Shown here in pieces: positions 41,726 to 53,110 of a stretch of DNA of 64,000 nucleotides. The notes below the pieces were generated by a model. It did not search any database. It had not been told where the DNA came from and saw only the letters and a list, made by a program, of their open reading frames with translations. Both the position numbers and the translations under genes were made by a program. The first letter of the stretch is position 1. The number at the start of each line of letters is the position of its first letter. The stretch comes from a bacterium (GTDB lineage Bacteria > Armatimonadota > Fimbriimonadia > Fimbriimonadales > Fimbriimonadaceae), in the NCBI GenBank assembly GCA_027485645.1, contig JAIXQR010000003.1, positions 496,001 to 560,000 of the forward strand, given 5' to 3'.

Positions 41726-41895
41726 GTAGTGGGAAAGGTGCATCAGGATGCTCAATCGCGATAAGTCCAAGTGAGCAGTTCTGATTTGGTTGAATGCGGT
41801 GAACCAGATCACAAGACCGCTACCCCGCCAGCAGGAAACTGACCGATTGTTGGTCAAAAAGTTTGTTGAGTAGTGGGAATTCTAGAACCCTCAAC

Positions 41896-42117
41896 TCAGC
41901 TATGCAAGGTGATGCGCTCGAAGGACGCGACGTCCTGGCGGCCTTTGAAGGCAAGTTCCCTGCGGGCTTCCATGAGGTCTTCCATCGCCTCAAGAACATT
42001 TTGTCGAGCTTCCTCTCGGGTCTTCCCTTGTGAGAATGCGCCTGGGACCTCTGGGATTGTCGCAACCCAGAAGTTGTCTTCGCCCATTTCGAGCATGATG
42101 GTCAGTTCGACGCCCAT
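41896..42117 (-). CDS. HicB-like antitoxin-type protein (no HicA seen)
   Basis: This 73-aa protein has a HicB fold: ELTIMLEMGEDNFWVATIPEVPGAFSQGKTREEARQNVLEAMEDLMEARRE. It lacks the C-terminal helix-turn-helix of many HicB proteins. A HicA partner is absent: 41726-41895 has no HicA-like frame, nor does the side upstream of its start. It is thus an orphan or a remnant at the edge of the A/T-rich island. A stretch at 41726-41895 otherwise holds nothing recognisable. Confidence 0.75.
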   Translation of the reverse strand: MGVELTIMLEMGEDNFWVATIPEVPGAFSQGKTREEARQNVLEAMEDLMEARRELAFKGRQDVASFERITLHS

Positions 42118-42446
42118 GCAGTTAGGATATGCCAGCCAAGGGGAATATGCTGGATTGGAGAATGCGCATACGAGTGAGACGATCGTAAATTGGCTAGGTC
42201 AACTCACTGATTCCCTGCGCGAACTTCCTTCATCACCTTGGTGACCTGATCTTCCGTGTTGCTTTCTCCGCGTCGAATGGGCATCTCCGAAAGTTGGGAC
42301 AGAAAAACTAACTATCAACGGCCGTCATTTGACGGGGAACAAGTCAAACGCTCCTACGGAATAGGCGACGAGATGCAGAAGAAGCTAGAACAAGTCAAAT
42401 ACGATCGAAGGTACGATGTGAGGGTACTAGAACGAAGGAACTAAAG
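42118..42446. other. 329-base gap upstream of the chaperone operon
   Basis: The gap holds the hicB-side and chaperone-side promoters, but I see no convincing -35/-10 pair. Two short reading frames (+ 42256-42444, GTG start, ending 2 nt before the operon; - 42204-42284, 26 codons, MPIRRGESNTEDQVTKVMKE) are of uncertain value. The region is visibly more A/T-rich than the surroundings. Confidence 0.4.
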
Positions 42447-44351
42447 GTGGCCACCGCTCCAGTTGTTAAACCTAGAAGGCATCGCTTCCTCAGTGACAAT
42501 CCTTTTCGTGCAGTGTCGGCTGGCTCGGCAGAGTCCTTCACCATCCTTCGAAGAAAGGCAGATGGCGTTGCCAAAGCTGCCAAAGTAGGTCTAGTGCCAG
42601 ACGTTCCGATGTCTGAGATCCTAGGGACGATCGATCTTGTCGAGCTTCCACAGATGATCCGCGGATTGGCCACCGATTCGGTGCGCAGAACTTGCTACCG
42701 CATCATGTGGCCGATGTCGCAAGAGACTATTGCCTTCGTGACAGAAGGCGGCACGCTTCTAAATGGTCAAATTCCAGACGAGGAGCATGCGCAACTTCTT
42801 TTCTTGTCTTCTTGGCTTGCGTATCTTGAGAGCGGCAGCCATCTCGATGCGGCCGCCGCGTTCGATCTGTGGGAGGAACTCTACAGGAATGAAACCATGG
42901 ACGAGCGGCTCATTAGTCTCCTTGTTGAAGAGGATGGCACTGAATGGGAGGCAGCACATGACTTCGTTCTCAATGCTCAGCGGACGGTAGCACTGACAAT
43001 CCTCTGCCAAGTGTCATCCGACGCAGCATCTGCGTGGGATGCAGGGCAGACGTCCCAAGGAGTTCAACTCATTGATGCGGTGCTTAAGTCCCCTATCGAG
43101 GACGAACTTGAGGAGTTGGCGCTCGAGCCCATTACTGGATATGCTCACCGATTGAAGGAACGCGTTGAAGTCGCGATTAAGGATATGTCGGCGTGGCATC
43201 GCGGGGGCCCTACAGAACCACCTCGCGAAGTGATCCAGCTAGAACTAATCGCGAATGCCCTGCAAGGTCGACTGCCATCAGCGAGGGACTTGCAAGATGC
43301 GGCAGACGACTGGAAAACGGCATTAGTTTGGCAAATGAGACAAGAAGCACTGCGGCTGAATCGCGAGGATGATAATGCTGGAGCTCAGCAGGTGATTCGG
43401 GCCGCATTGAACTTGACAGTTACTGCTACACAAAAAGCAAAGCTTATAGAGGACCTTGGGCACCTGGAGAAACTCATTTCCGAGGAAAAGTCTGCTGCGG
43501 CATATTCGGAGATAAATGAAGTTACTAGCGTCCCAACGCTTGGAACGCTCAATGGTTTTGGACTGAGTCTGTACGGCAAAAAGCTATTTAGTGCCGACAA
43601 AAAATTATATTTTAAGATTCTTTATTTTACTATGGCTTTTATTCCTGTTCTCCCAATTGCTCGCTACCTTGTAAGTGACGCACCCGGAGGTGCCTGGCAT
43701 TTTCATGGAAAAACTCCTTGGACGCAAGGAATGAAGATTCATTGCGTTTTTGCCTGCACCCTTTTACTTGCGGTGTTTCTCTACTTTGCAAACATAGGTT
43801 CTGGTATCGGCGGCGACGTGAGTTCCTCAAAAGATAGCGCAAGCACGGTGGTGTGGTCAGAGCCTGATCAAAATTCTTCCGGGACTCCTAGTGCACCTGC
43901 AGAGAACGAAGCGAAAAATGAGGTTGACAGTACCGCTGGTCAGTTGGATTCAGCAATAGATTCCGAAAATCAAGCAGGTGATGTGTTTGACGGCAGTACT
44001 GGGCGATCGGAACGAGACGCTCCAGAGAGCAAGAGTGAGGAATTAGAACGAAAGCTAGAGGCGCTAAAAATCGAGATAGCAAGCATCAAGTCAGACATTG
44101 CAGTGGAGAGGGCGGCCCTGGACAAAGATAAGGTTATGCTTGATGCCTTGGAAGCGGAAATTGAAGCGAGCGATCCTAGCCCATACAGTCAGGATGAAAT
44201 AGACGTGCATAACGCGAAGGTGCGCCGCCATGAGCGTCTCCGGGTGGAATTCAATTCAAGTGTGCGAAGCTATAACCAAAAAGTAGAGTTGGAGAAGAAG
44301 AAGGTGCAGAAACATAACGAGATTGTTGATGACCTGAACTCAAGGAGATAG
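42447..44351 (+). CDS. Membrane-anchored helical partner of an Hsp70 system
   Basis: This 634-aa protein begins with a short DnaJ-neighbour-like opening (RRHRFLSDNPFRAVSAGSAES) that resembles Hsp70-partner proteins starting NPFRxLGL. A long alpha-helical region to about residue 350 follows. Then comes a conserved-looking membrane module: TLNGFGLSLYG, FIPVLPIARYLVSD and HFHGKTPW around helices at about 388-412 and 430-452. A Ser/Glu-rich linker and a coiled coil (530-634) end it. No J-domain HPD motif was seen. The start is GTG with AAGGAA upstream. It is the first gene of a three-gene operon (4 nt to the GrpE-like gene). The function is inferred from context. Confidence 0.6.
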   Translation: MATAPVVKPRRHRFLSDNPFRAVSAGSAESFTILRRKADGVAKAAKVGLVPDVPMSEILGTIDLVELPQMIRGLATDSVRRTCYRIMWPMSQETIAFVTEGGTLLNGQIPDEEHAQLLFLSSWLAYLESGSHLDAAAAFDLWEELYRNETMDERLISLLVEEDGTEWEAAHDFVLNAQRTVALTILCQVSSDAASAWDAGQTSQGVQLIDAVLKSPIEDELEELALEPITGYAHRLKERVEVAIKDMSAWHRGGPTEPPREVIQLELIANALQGRLPSARDLQDAADDWKTALVWQMRQEALRLNREDDNAGAQQVIRAALNLTVTATQKAKLIEDLGHLEKLISEEKSAAAYSEINEVTSVPTLGTLNGFGLSLYGKKLFSADKKLYFKILYFTMAFIPVLPIARYLVSDAPGGAWHFHGKTPWTQGMKIHCVFACTLLLAVFLYFANIGSGIGGDVSSSKDSASTVVWSEPDQNSSGTPSAPAENEAKNEVDSTAGQLDSAIDSENQAGDVFDGSTGRSERDAPESKSEELERKLEALKIEIASIKSDIAVERAALDKDKVMLDALEAEIEASDPSPYSQDEIDVHNAKVRRHERLRVEFNSSVRSYNQKVELEKKKVQKHNEIVDDLNSRR

Positions 44352-44354
44352 ATC

Positions 44355-44759
44355 ATGGGTGGCAAACGATTTAAGAAAGGTTCAACCAAACGGAAGCAAG
44401 CCGAAGTTGGCGGAAAACTCGTAAAAGATCCCGAAGACAGCGGGCCGACGACCGCCCAAGTGGCTGAATTGGCCGTCGATCTTTGGAAGCTTCGGGATCG
44501 TATCCAGACGGAAGCGGCTAGCGAACGTATCATTGCTGCATGTGAGCGTACTGAGGATCGCTTGAAGCGAATGGGTTTTGAAGTTGATGAAATGATCGGG
44601 CGACCGTACAACACAAATTTGAAGGCGAGGGTCGTTGATCATGAGCCCCAGCCAGGACCACTGGTTATAGGACAGTGCATTAGTCCTGCAGTGTTCTTCC
44701 GAGGGCACCTGGTTCGCGAAGCTGAAATAATTACGAAGGGAAGTGAGGAGAAGCAATGA
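44355..44759 (+). CDS. Short GrpE-like protein, probable nucleotide exchange factor
   Basis: This 134-aa protein has a basic N-terminus (GGKRFKKGSTKRKQ), one helix and a C-terminal domain with the GrpE beta-domain pattern: LKRMGFEVDEMIGRPYNT, then a strand pair ending FFRGHLVREAEIITKG. This follows the GrpE order (L-x-x-x-G-x-E-x-x-D-x-x-G-x-P-x-x-x-N and G-x-x-x-x-G-x-x-L-R-x-A-x-V). The long N-terminal coiled coil of GrpE is missing. It overlaps the Hsp70 gene by ATGA, supporting a nucleotide-exchange role for that Hsp70. The similarity is a pattern match by eye. Confidence 0.65.
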   Translation: MGGKRFKKGSTKRKQAEVGGKLVKDPEDSGPTTAQVAELAVDLWKLRDRIQTEAASERIIAACERTEDRLKRMGFEVDEMIGRPYNTNLKARVVDHEPQPGPLVIGQCISPAVFFRGHLVREAEIITKGSEEKQ

Positions 44760-47134
44760 GAAAGACGGTTGAGTGGGGAATTGACCTAGGCACGACTAAC
44801 AGTGCAATCGCACGCATGACGACGAAGGGACCAGAAATCGCGCAGGTTCAGCGACAAAACTACATACCTTCAGCGGTGGCCGTCGATAAGAGGGGAGATG
44901 TTAAGGTTGGAGCAGACGCGTTAAACGTGCATCTGGGTGGCTCAAGATGGTTCAAACGATGGATGGGCACGAAGAATGTGGTCTCCATGGGTGGAGCAGA
45001 TTGGACGGCAGAACAACTTTCCTCAGAGATTCTCAAAGCACTTCGGGCTGCTGCTCGAAGAAGAGCTAACGAAGAGATCGAGGACGTGGTCATCACAGTG
45101 CCCGCAATGTTTACACAGCCTCAATGCGCGGCCACGAGCGAGGCGGCACGAATCGCAGGGCTGAACGCAGTCGCGCTTCTGCAGGAGCCGATCGCAGCGG
45201 CGACCGCGTACCTATCGGAAAACCCGGCGGAGGGTCACTATCTCGTTTATGATCTCGGAGGTGGCACATTTGATGTTTCACTCATACGCCTAGCCGCCGG
45301 CGAGATGAACGTGGTGGAGCATGGTGGCGACAACTATCTCGGAGGTGCGGACTTCGACCGGGCGATTTTTGACTGGGTTCTTGATCAAATCGACCGAAAG
45401 GGCGGTGACGCTCGCATCTTTGACAACGGATGGCAACGCGCACAATTGTTGCTTGCCTGTGAGGACGCGAGGATCCTGGTAAGTGACTCCGAAGTAGCCC
45501 CTATCTATTTGGATGACTTTGATTTACCGATGTCCAAGATTGAGCTAACGCGCGAACGCGCCGAGGACCTGATCGCCAATTTTGTGACTCGCACAATTGA
45601 GATCGCCCAAGATCGTGTGAATTCTGCAGCGGGCTCGGTTAGTGCGATTCTCTTAGTCGGCGGTCCAACTCAAATGCCGTATGTGCGAAGACGCTTGCAG
45701 ACGGAACTCGGAGTTGCGTTGGCATTTGACCGTGATCCGATGACCGTAGTGGCAGCAGGTGCTGCGGTACATGCAGCCACTATTTGGAGAGAGTTAGGAG
45801 TGAGTTCCGCACATTCTAAGCCAGGCTCCGCTTCGCTCGAGTTGTACTACGAGCCTGTAAGTCCGGATGACTCCACGACGGTAGCTGGAAAGATCATTAG
45901 CCCAACTGGATTCGTTGGCGAGATTCGTCTGAAGACTGCCGACCGATCTTGGGAATCTGGCTGGCGAAGACTCATTAACGGCGCTTTTAGCCTCGAGGTG
46001 AACCTTGGCCGGCACGAAGTTACGGAATTTTTAGTCGAGTTACGGGATGCGCAGGGGCGCACAATAGAAACTGATCCAGGAAACTTCACAATACGATCGG
46101 GCATTCGAACGGCCCAACCGATAACGCCATACAACTATGGCGTCGTTCGCCAGGGAGGCAAGCTTGGAGTAGTGGTCAAGGCTGGAGAACCATTACCAGC
46201 AAGCGGGAGCGACGATTTTGCTCTGGCAAAGACCGTTGTTGCCGGTTCGCCAGACGAAGCAACCATCTACTTCGTGGAGGGCAATAGTAATTTTCCTGAC
46301 GAGAACGTTCGGGTCGGTTCGCTTACCATACGAGGCACTGATCTAAGGCGCACGCTGAAAGAGGGAGAGAAAGTCCAGGTTCGGATCAGAATGGATGAGA
46401 GTCGACGCCTCACGGCGAAGGTGCACATACCTCTGATCGATGAAGACTACACAGTCGAATTGCACTCTGTCCAAGATGCTCCAGACCTTGACGACCTGCT
46501 TTCTTCTTTCAAAGAAGCAAGAGAGGCAATACAAGAAGTTGAGAGTCATGCTGACGAAGATGAACAGGAAATGGTTGTGCGCGCTGATAGGCAGCTTGAA
46601 CAACTTGAAGCATCATTAGTTCGTGTTGAGCGTGGAGAACTCGGTGAGGCAGAACGGGTCCAGAAGCAACTCGCCGACGTAAAAGCAACTATTCGTCCTC
46701 TTAAAGACAAGTATGGTTTGCAGGCTAAGCACGACAACGTGGTTGCAAGGATCGTGCAAGCAGAGGCACTTTGTCGTCAGTATCAAGATCAAATGGGGCT
46801 CGCAAAGCTTCGGGATGCACGTAGTGATGCTGAGAAGGCATTGCGGTTGGAGCAAGGCACAGCGCTCGACAGCATCCATGAACGTGTACTGGACACCTTC
46901 TGGGAGCACTACGGCAAGACCCGAGAGTGCTGGGAACATCAGGTGGATCTGTTGAAGCAATTCGCCCCAATTGCCAAGGACTCTCTAACGTATTACGAAC
47001 ACGTCCGTCGTGCGGAGCAAGCTCTAGCCGAAAACGATTACGAAGGTGTCCGTTTAAACGCACTTCGAGCTTGGGATCTACTCCCGGATATGGTTCGAGA
47101 GAACGATCGATTCCACGACGCAGCACTTCGATGA
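44756..47134 (+). CDS. Atypical Hsp70 with extra beta domain and C-terminal coiled coil
   Basis: This 792-aa protein has an Hsp70 ATPase domain: GIDLGTTNS (residues 8-16), VVITVPAMFTQPQ, LLQEPIAAATAY, DLGGGTFDVSLI from D166 and LVGGPTQMPYVRR near 301. From about 360 to 455 there is an extra beta-rich segment (SLELYYEPVSPDDSTTVAGK, IRLKTADRSWESGWRRL) where DnaK has the DLLLLDV-type linker. A substrate-like beta domain (YNYGVVRQGGKLGVVVKAGEPLP, RIRMDESRRLTAKVH) and a long coiled coil (580-790) follow. HscC and related Hsp70s have a plain architecture, so this is a variant. It is the last gene of the operon. Confidence 0.88.
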   Translation: MRKTVEWGIDLGTTNSAIARMTTKGPEIAQVQRQNYIPSAVAVDKRGDVKVGADALNVHLGGSRWFKRWMGTKNVVSMGGADWTAEQLSSEILKALRAAARRRANEEIEDVVITVPAMFTQPQCAATSEAARIAGLNAVALLQEPIAAATAYLSENPAEGHYLVYDLGGGTFDVSLIRLAAGEMNVVEHGGDNYLGGADFDRAIFDWVLDQIDRKGGDARIFDNGWQRAQLLLACEDARILVSDSEVAPIYLDDFDLPMSKIELTRERAEDLIANFVTRTIEIAQDRVNSAAGSVSAILLVGGPTQMPYVRRRLQTELGVALAFDRDPMTVVAAGAAVHAATIWRELGVSSAHSKPGSASLELYYEPVSPDDSTTVAGKIISPTGFVGEIRLKTADRSWESGWRRLINGAFSLEVNLGRHEVTEFLVELRDAQGRTIETDPGNFTIRSGIRTAQPITPYNYGVVRQGGKLGVVVKAGEPLPASGSDDFALAKTVVAGSPDEATIYFVEGNSNFPDENVRVGSLTIRGTDLRRTLKEGEKVQVRIRMDESRRLTAKVHIPLIDEDYTVELHSVQDAPDLDDLLSSFKEAREAIQEVESHADEDEQEMVVRADRQLEQLEASLVRVERGELGEAERVQKQLADVKATIRPLKDKYGLQAKHDNVVARIVQAEALCRQYQDQMGLAKLRDARSDAEKALRLEQGTALDSIHERVLDTFWEHYGKTRECWEHQVDLLKQFAPIAKDSLTYYEHVRRAEQALAENDYEGVRLNALRAWDLLPDMVRENDRFHDAALR

Positions 47135-47219
47135 TAGCGCTTTATTTGTTTCATCTTTAGGAACTAAACATTATGCGCTGTGCACGTACGGATTAAAGCA
47201 GCCATGCCAACCCGGGCGA

Positions 47220-47417
47220 TCAGTCCTTGGACTCGCGAAGCTGGTCGGCAGGAATTCGAACGACCTTGCCATCTTTGAAAAGCACAATCGCGGTGTTTGT
47301 TTGAATGGCGATTTGTCTCGCCATTTCAGCCGCCCGTTTCATGGCGATGAGCGAATTGCGGATGTCCGGGTTCTTTGCCTTCCAGAGTTCTTCTTGAGTC
47401 ATTGGTTTTCGCCCCAT
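47220..47417 (-). CDS. Small protein paired with the zeta-like kinase
   Basis: This 65-aa protein (DIRNSLIAMKRAAEMARQIAIQTNTAIVLFKDGKVVRIPADQLR) has two helices and a beta strand pair. It overlaps the zeta-like gene by 19 nt, so the two are one unit. Its place after the kinase fits an antitoxin or accessory partner, although the order toxin-then-partner is the reverse of epsilon-zeta. No known antitoxin family matches. Confidence 0.6.
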   Translation of the reverse strand: MGRKPMTQEELWKAKNPDIRNSLIAMKRAAEMARQIAIQTNTAIVLFKDGKVVRIPADQLRESKD

Positions 47418-47911
47418 TCCAGCATAACAGGTTCGCCATCTGTATTATCGTACAGGGCCCAATCGCTTACCGCCGGTCGGTAGAGCCTTTGAAAGTTTGT
47501 CCATCCGGACGCGAATCGGCGGCGGATCACTTCCTCGGGAACGTCGTGTCCGCCGTGTCGAACCCGCTCGGCCACTCGCGTAATGGCGGTTTCAACACTC
47601 GGAAGGCGAAGGAAGATCAAGCTCACCCAGTAGCCTTGGGCTTTCCACTGGTCGATGTGCCGCAGGTAACCAACACCCGACAGCGTGGTTTCAAACGCAA
47701 AGCTCTCTCCGTGCTGTACACATTGATCGATTTCGGCGAGCATTAATCGCGCCGCTTTGACCGCTGCGGTTTCCGGGGCGAACGGGGCCAAGCCCGCGGC
47801 GATTAGATCGGCGTTGATGAAGCGGGGCAATCCGGCCTCGGCGGGCAGGAACGATCTCGCGAAAGTCGTCTTGCCCGCACCGTTTGGCCCGGCGATGATG
47901 ATGATCCGCAT
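47399..47911 (-). CDS. Zeta toxin-like P-loop kinase
   Basis: This 170-aa AAA_33-type kinase resembles zeta toxins, which phosphorylate UDP-N-acetylglucosamine and poison cell-wall synthesis. It has IAGPNGAGKTTFARSFLP (Walker A), RFINADLIAAGLAPFAPE (catalytic Asp region), SFAFETTLSG and VAERVRHGGHDVPEEVIRRRF. The start ATG shares a base with the stop of the GH20 hexosaminidase (TGATG), so it is coupled to an enzyme that acts on N-acetylhexosamine glycans. Its substrate may thus be a sugar and not a toxin target. Confidence 0.83.
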   Translation of the reverse strand: MRIIIIAGPNGAGKTTFARSFLPAEAGLPRFINADLIAAGLAPFAPETAAVKAARLMLAEIDQCVQHGESFAFETTLSGVGYLRHIDQWKAQGYWVSLIFLRLPSVETAITRVAERVRHGGHDVPEEVIRRRFASGWTNFQRLYRPAVSDWALYDNTDGEPVMLEWGENQ

Positions 47912-52769: not shown

Positions 52770-53110
52770 AATCCGAGTCGGTCTATAAGCCGGATTCTGT
52801 ATTTGTGCAGCGATTTATCTACGCGACCAACCCGGAGGATCGGCGGGCCGCGTCATCTCCTCCCTATTTGGTCTTGCTTCAGATGGGGTTTGCACGGCCG
52901 CGGAGTTACCTCCAACGCCGGTGAGCTCTTACCTCACCATTTCAACCTTACCTCCCGATCTCTCGGGTTTGGCGGTATGTTTCTGTTGCACTTTCCGTCG
53001 GGTCACCCCGCCCCGGCATGAGCAAGCTCTCGCCGGGCATCTTGCCCTATGAAGTCCGGACTTTCCTCCCCAATCCTGAAGACGGGGCCGCTACCCGACC
53101 AACTCGGATT
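52770..53110 (-). ncRNA. rnpB: RNase P RNA (class A)
   Basis: Read on the minus strand the RNA has the conserved GGAGGAAAGTCCGG near its 5' end, the GACGGAAAGTGCAACAGAAA core, and the 3' segment ending AGACCGACTCGGATT. The P1 helix forms from 5' AATCCGAGTTGGTC and 3' GACCGACTCGGATT, with a single G-U pair. RNase P RNA cleaves pre-tRNA 5' leaders. The ends are set by P1 and may be off by a few bases. A 99-codon plus-strand frame here is spurious. Confidence 0.95.

Follow-up and report, generated by a model that had tools for sequence, protein, structure and literature searches.

In the DnaK-DnaJ complex, D35 of the HPD motif of the J domain pairs with R167 of the Hsp70 and H33 with L391 of its linker, and the HPD-R167 contact represents the normal trigger (PMC13012618). 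Host DnaJ is required for phage sensing by bNACHT25 (PMC12169576). The predicted GAP1-N2 GTPase conflict systems combine HSP70, GrpE, and a DnaJ/TPR-FNIII protein, according to the part of Kaur et al. 2020 (PMC7159879) that concerns them; in CoCoNuT type III-A, a predicted defence system, an Hsp70-like nucleotide-binding domain (NBD) and substrate-binding domain (SBD) are fused to McrB/McrC, and the Walker A-like motifs are described as degenerate (PMC11090510). In the present work, we analysed a stretch of 64,000 nucleotides of Armatimonadota DNA (contig JAIXQR010000003.1, positions 496,001 to 560,000; the window), which harbors at 42447-47134 three open reading frames (ORFs) of 634, 134, and 792 amino acids (aa) on the + strand, hereafter the trio. 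We propose, with a probability of roughly 0.6, that the trio is a membrane-anchored, self-contained, HPD-independent Hsp70 machine with a rebuilt J-protein circuit, most likely serving anti-phage defence. Its parts list is well supported:

Gene 1, 42447..44351, + strand: 634 aa, GTG start; domains read from sequence, hydropathy, and profile alignment.
Gene 1 layout: J-like domain without HPD, residues ~18-90; alpha-helical region, ~110-380; hydrophobic stretches, 387-405 and 427-445; acidic linker; coiled-coil-like segment, ~530-634.
Predicted J-like domain inside gene 1, 42498..42716, + strand: residues 18-90, NPFRAV...RRTCYRIMWP; hhalign to DnaJ J domains.
Gene 2, 44355..44759, + strand: 134 aa, predicted short GrpE-type nucleotide exchange factor; profile-profile evidence.
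Gene 3, 44756..47134, + strand: 792 aa, variant Hsp70 with NBD 8-345, beta-rich insert ~350-454, SBD-beta from ~455, and helical C-terminus.
NBD-SBD insert in gene 3, 45803..46117, + strand: residues ~350-454, in place of the canonical linker; WESG motif.

Gene 3 matches the Pfam HSP70 family (E 2.9e-67), and its residues 8-345 correspond to the DnaK NBD (E 2.3e-46). The SBD is present as well: the profile of the C-terminal half matches the DnaK/Hsc70 SBD (E 4.9e-6), the alignment starting past 118 profile positions, at DnaK residue 394. Eight DnaKs have an NBD-SBD junction of 29 aa, and in six accessory Hsp70s from outside the family it measures 31-71 aa; all the aligned family members have 128-139 aa there, the window protein 130 aa. 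The E. coli family sequence reads alike. An insert of ~100 aa occupies the linker position in all 15 family Hsp70s, the canonical VLLLD-type linker being gone; by inspection it is beta-rich, and 13 of the 15 carry a W-x-[ST]-G motif in it. The ATPase motifs GxDLGT, FKR, D[LIF]GGGT, and QEP are intact throughout (15/15). At the J-protein site, all 15 sequences have Q in place of N170, and the R167 position is taken by A, T, M, I, S, E, or V; 25 out of 25 DnaKs have R and N (E. coli numbering, assigned via the conserved NEP motif). In the Hsp70 tree, from which HscC was left out, the 15 proteins form one clade with respect to DnaK and the other accessory Hsp70s (support 99/98). A Planctomycetota Hsp70 (L036) was considered as a further member and rejected, having a junction of normal length and keeping R and N at the J-protein site.

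The loss on the Hsp70 side is accompanied by a loss on the partner side: HPD is missing from all 16 partner proteins inspected. The first ~75 residues of gene 1 past the start region (NPFR...G...DPKRR..Y) align collinearly, along 61 columns, with J domains from related genomes (hhalign E 8.5e-7; the hhalign E-values given here refer to single comparisons); none of 150 column shuffles did as well, and with unrelated helical alignments the E-value was never better than 0.01. The Sinorhizobium, Vibrio, and Shewanella partners appear to have a shorter J-like version, with E 4.8e-6 to the Armatimonadota set and a weak E of 0.0012 to DnaJ alone; the Pseudomonas partner was not matched by the J-like model and represents a merely possible case. 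According to hydropathy, the two hydrophobic stretches of gene 1 are of membrane type; past the second one the protein is acidic and ends with a coiled-coil-like segment, and its C-terminus is presumably periplasmic. Among the relatives, Aminobacter has a peptidoglycan-binding region as the corresponding part, and Shewanella and Vibrio have a separate PG_binding_1 membrane protein instead. We do not claim a strict rule by which HPD loss always comes with R167 loss, since in the congener G011 an HPP-type J protein adjoins an Hsp70 that keeps R167. That locus (L039 7089-11098, G011:C4) is another accessory triad, composed of a membrane GrpE-like protein, a 576-aa Hsp70, and a membrane protein of J-TPR type in which HPP replaces HPD. 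Furthermore, a protein of 788 aa that begins with the same J-like sequence and has a membrane segment and a coiled-coil end was observed elsewhere (L085 3145-5511, - strand, G188:C2), among glycosyltransferase-like genes and with no Hsp70 seen nearby.

Gene 2 is predicted to be a short GrpE-type exchange factor. Its family profile aligned with canonical GrpE over 63 columns of the beta domain (hhalign E 5.9e-5) and, once plasmid relatives were included, over 104 collinear columns comprising the C-terminal beta domain (E 6.5e-10); 0 of 150 shuffles were as good, and unrelated controls gave 0.12 or worse. The exchange factor is 114-153 aa long in most copies. In Haliscomenobacter the same slot is occupied by a transmembrane-anchored GrpE-like protein, which was held out of the model and matched at E 1.6e-9. 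Gene 2 taken singly hit no Pfam or NCBIfam family at E<=1 (below the GrpE cut-off) and nothing in PADLOC; HMMER comparison of the exchange-factor profile with the PDB gave chance-level matches alone (best E 0.15, an rRNA methyltransferase). The single-sequence scans of Pfam, NCBIfam, and PADLOC gave no match for gene 1 either. The J-like and exchange-factor models matched family loci only among 3,017 ORFs, with the held-out E. coli J-like protein at E 1.7e-17.

These results bear on an earlier, sequence-only reading of the window. It described a variant Hsp70 having its own exchange factor and a partner anchored in the membrane, and this is supported, including the GrpE-like nature of the 134-aa protein and the membrane-tethered helical partner with a coiled coil. 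It had seen no J-domain HPD; this is correct for the motif, and a degenerate J domain does appear to be present at the start of gene 1. The Hsp70 is enlarged, as it had said, and the extra size can now be assigned to the ~100-aa insert plus a longer C-terminal helical part. It had pointed to profile searches of the two partner proteins, which failed with single sequences against Pfam and NCBIfam and succeeded, for both GrpE and J-like matches, when profiles were compared.

Elsewhere, the host genome (3.19 Mb) encodes DnaK, GrpE, and DnaJ proteins that bear HPD; thus, the trio is accessory. Its order is kept in four further Armatimonadota genomes (24-64% protein identity) and is therefore not due to chance. 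The copies recovered are as follows:

G005 (L037): full trio in order; same genus.
Chthonomonadaceae metagenome-assembled genome (L035): full trio in order; groEL and M50 protease genes adjoining.
G226 (L083): full trio in order.
G228 (L084): full trio in order; partner apparently frameshifted and thereby split; kinase gene after the Hsp70 (L084 2679-4211).
G052: Hsp70 at contig start.

The conservation across genomes and the GrpE-like match of gene 2 are the two points whose absence, according to the sequence-only reading, would have spoken against it; neither was absent. Among the 291 genomes of the phylum there are six strict members, the window's own counted, and one of a second type (G237); within the genus, 2 out of 20 genomes carry the trio. 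Moreover, the window Hsp70 shares 64% identity with the Chthonomonadaceae protein and 58% with that of its congener, which points to horizontal transfer. Full-length Hsp70 relatives were found on plasmids of Shewanella, Sinorhizobium, Haliscomenobacter, Polaromonas, Vibrio, Pseudomonas, Aeromonas, and Aminobacter, and a DNA search retrieved a copy in E. coli HeN100 and a decayed one in E. coli NH-21 (L162 9566-13237), where, next to an IS1, the genes for Hsp70 and exchange factor have been lost. The family spans Armatimonadota, Proteobacteria, and Bacteroidota, and its Hsp70s are usually accompanied by an exchange factor and a J-like partner of the same kind; some relatives add an AAA ATPase, resembling IetA (PADLOC, E 2.9e-26), and a peptidoglycan-binding membrane protein. 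The HeN100 cassette (L161 13960-20743) comprises five genes, coding for the exchange factor, the Hsp70, the AAA protein, the membrane protein, and the J-like partner. Probing the PLSDB plasmids with gene 1 did not retrieve any sequence, the distant family members there having come via the Hsp70; viral-contig scans with genes 1, 2, and 3 gave nothing or merely generic Hsp70, and phage records searched with the Hsp70 C-terminus of a relative gave nothing. Two further arrangements were observed: a kinase-AAA fusion and a TerB-annotated protein directly after the Haliscomenobacter Hsp70 (L088 8526-10891), and, in G005 (L041 6983-14999, G005:C106), three short Hsp70s (496-518 aa) clustered with a 569-aa kinase-like protein and a 497-aa protein whose C-terminus is GrpE-like.

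The surroundings of the trio in the window include the following features:

Variable segment (HicB-like gene plus trio), 41788..47203, no strand: not in the sister genome G014, which has SIR2-HerA there; blastn of flanks, PADLOC.
HicB-like antitoxin gene, 41896..42117, - strand: E 4e-7; within the variable segment.
65-aa protein and Zeta_toxin-like protein, 47220..47911, - strand: overlapping genes; Zeta_toxin 47399-47911, E 7e-9.

In G014 the flanks are 92% identical, and a SIR2-HerA anti-phage pair (PADLOC E 4.2e-95 and 1.8e-170) replaces the HicB-like gene and the trio; in the congener G011 the site is empty, the two outer flanking genes being adjacent. The G014 pair lies at L159 3280-6206 (- strand; G014:C6:8500-21200), and genes of 525, 217, and 169 aa stand beside it in the same segment. 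Relatives of the trio repeatedly lie in defence hotspots: between a complete Zorya and a helicase/AAA pair with BREX-2 (Polaromonas), beside BREX (Haliscomenobacter), beside a type IIG restriction-modification system and GajB (Sinorhizobium), beside Gabija-like genes (Aminobacter), and beside RADAR RdrB and DptF (E. coli HeN100). Other relatives have a restriction gene and toxin-antitoxin genes as neighbours, or are carried by Tn7-like elements. Of the control loci, two on plasmids carried no annotation; the single readable one, HscC in Duffyella, had no defence genes. PADLOC 2023 gave no convincing match for genes 1-3 or for the Hsp70, exchange factor, and partner of the relatives; we found no description of the trio family in the open-licence literature, and descriptions later than this PADLOC version could be missed.

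The three-gene operon of the sequence-only reading is confirmed, all three ORFs being in place; as for the spacing, genes 2 and 3 do overlap via ATGA, and the gap between genes 1 and 2 measures 3 nt instead of 4. Shine-Dalgarno-like sequences, AAGGAG and GAGGAG, lie upstream of genes 2 and 3, respectively; a sigma-70 promoter scan gave 0 sites versus 3.4 expected by chance and is uninformative. The A/T-rich island also holds (GC 0.52 versus 0.57-0.595 around it, and third-position GC of 0.48-0.52 versus 0.68-0.74 in two neighbouring genes), as do the toxin-antitoxin-like neighbours, the HicB-like and Zeta_toxin genes flanking the trio. The 65-aa/Zeta_toxin-like pair belongs to the shared flank, occurs in G014 as well, and is outside the system; no evidence ties the HicB-like gene to the trio, and no adjoining HicA partner was recognised by eye. 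Defence, which had been suggested as a possible role, is strengthened by the genomic context. A bacterial RNase P class A RNA was also located in the window, at 52770-53106 (- strand; Rfam RF00010, 254 bits).

The membrane segments of gene 1, the peptidoglycan-binding partners among the relatives, and the groEL and M50 protease genes adjoining the Chthonomonadaceae copy would also suit an accessory envelope-stress chaperone, i.e., a membrane-anchored Hsp70 for misfolded or secreted proteins at the inner membrane, carried between genomes for its general fitness value and inserted in the variable sites where defence genes gather as well. Three Armatimonadota copies (G114, G226, and G228) have no known defence neighbour, which agrees with such a role; however, the repeated nearness to differing defence systems on unrelated replicons, the exact site exchange with SIR2-HerA, and the patchy presence within the genus argue against it, and we consider it rather unlikely. 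Still less probable, in our opinion, is that the Hsp70 fold acts as an ATP-driven signalling scaffold, switching an associated enzyme (AAA ATPase or Ser/Thr kinase) with no client folding: the loss of the HPD receptor and of the linker, the kinase downstream in G228, the kinase-AAA fusion in Haliscomenobacter, and the IetA-like AAA of several relatives are in line with it, but the SBD can still be recognised, an exchange factor of its own has been retained, and in the window no enzyme partner accompanies the trio. As the genome has other DnaK, GrpE, and DnaJ proteins, the two partners might serve the housekeeping DnaK, the variant Hsp70 being an inert or regulatory paralogue; yet the variant Hsp70 moves in company with the exchange factor and the J-like partner, and its catalytic motifs are intact in 15/15, which renders this very improbable.

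Besides the three copies just mentioned, some other points weigh against an anti-phage chaperone machine. The defence neighbours are listed cases with no background rate, taken from a plasmid-biased sample, and the trio has no recognised killing or nuclease component. Furthermore, the J-like and GrpE-like assignments come from sequence profiles, and the AlphaFold models are of low confidence: for gene 2 (single sequence) the predicted local distance difference test score (pLDDT) was 54, with short helices at 33-52 and 57-72 only where GrpE has a long N-terminal dimerising helix, and for the N-terminus of gene 1 (two sequences) it was 43, with helices in the right order.

If the trio is indeed a membrane-anchored, HPD-independent defence machine, the following scenario can be depicted. 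Gene 1 would sit in the inner membrane, exposing a cytosolic helical platform, and its N-terminal J-like domain would hold the Hsp70 without the HPD-R167 contact. A client, or a signal from the envelope, would then act via the inserted beta domain to set off ATP hydrolysis, and gene 2 would reset the ATPase through ADP release. Once a phage infects, the targets of the machine at the membrane would be proteins of the phage or of the envelope, which it would bind or remodel. Some proteobacterial relatives add the IetA-like AAA ATPase and the peptidoglycan-binding membrane protein. The broader proposal, that of an undescribed anti-phage defence family present in at least three phyla, E. coli included, with an HPD-independent Hsp70, a beta domain for the linker, a short exchange factor, a J-like partner anchored to membrane or cell wall, and chaperone recognition of abnormal proteins as the infection sensor, is in our view evenly balanced.

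The HPD-R167 contact and the hydrophobic linker form the core of the accepted J-protein switching of Hsp70. The family has lost both, on both sides, and has kept ATPase, exchange factor, and J-like sequence; it thus represents a natural test of which parts are replaceable. If the reading of the context is true, it would be a defence system with a chaperone at its core, directly linking protein quality control and bacterial immunity, and the E. coli copy makes it testable with standard laboratory tools.

Compared to the known systems, the trio shares with Zorya (ZorAB), which adjoins one relative, the idea of an envelope-anchored defence, by analogy only, since the cassette has no ZorA/ZorB homologue. 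HscC/J-domain pairs and other accessory Hsp70 loci (such as L165 and L039) likewise encode an accessory Hsp70 with its partners; however, the accessory Hsp70s tested fall outside the trio clade, with junctions of 31-71 aa and no comparable insert. Unlike that of CoCoNuT type III-A, the trio Hsp70 is stand-alone, has intact catalytic motifs, and comes with its own exchange factor. The GAP1-N2 systems, predicted to act in conflicts, likewise bring together HSP70, GrpE, and a protein fused to DnaJ or TPR, but they are centred on the GAP1-N2 GTPase, and the part of their description considered here (PMC7159879) does not include the Hsp70 architecture of the trio; no GTPase was recognised among the operon genes by ORF reading (window, L035, L037, and L083), no GAP1 model having been run. 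Finally, the trio resembles the DnaK-DnaJ-GrpE triad in having an Hsp70 ATPase with intact catalytic motifs and an SBD, a GrpE-type exchange factor, and a J-like partner, the latter two as predicted from profiles. It differs from the triad in that HPD, R167, and the canonical linker are gone and an insert of ~100 aa separates NBD and SBD; moreover, the partner is usually membrane-linked, the exchange factor is short, and the whole set is mobile and patchily distributed.

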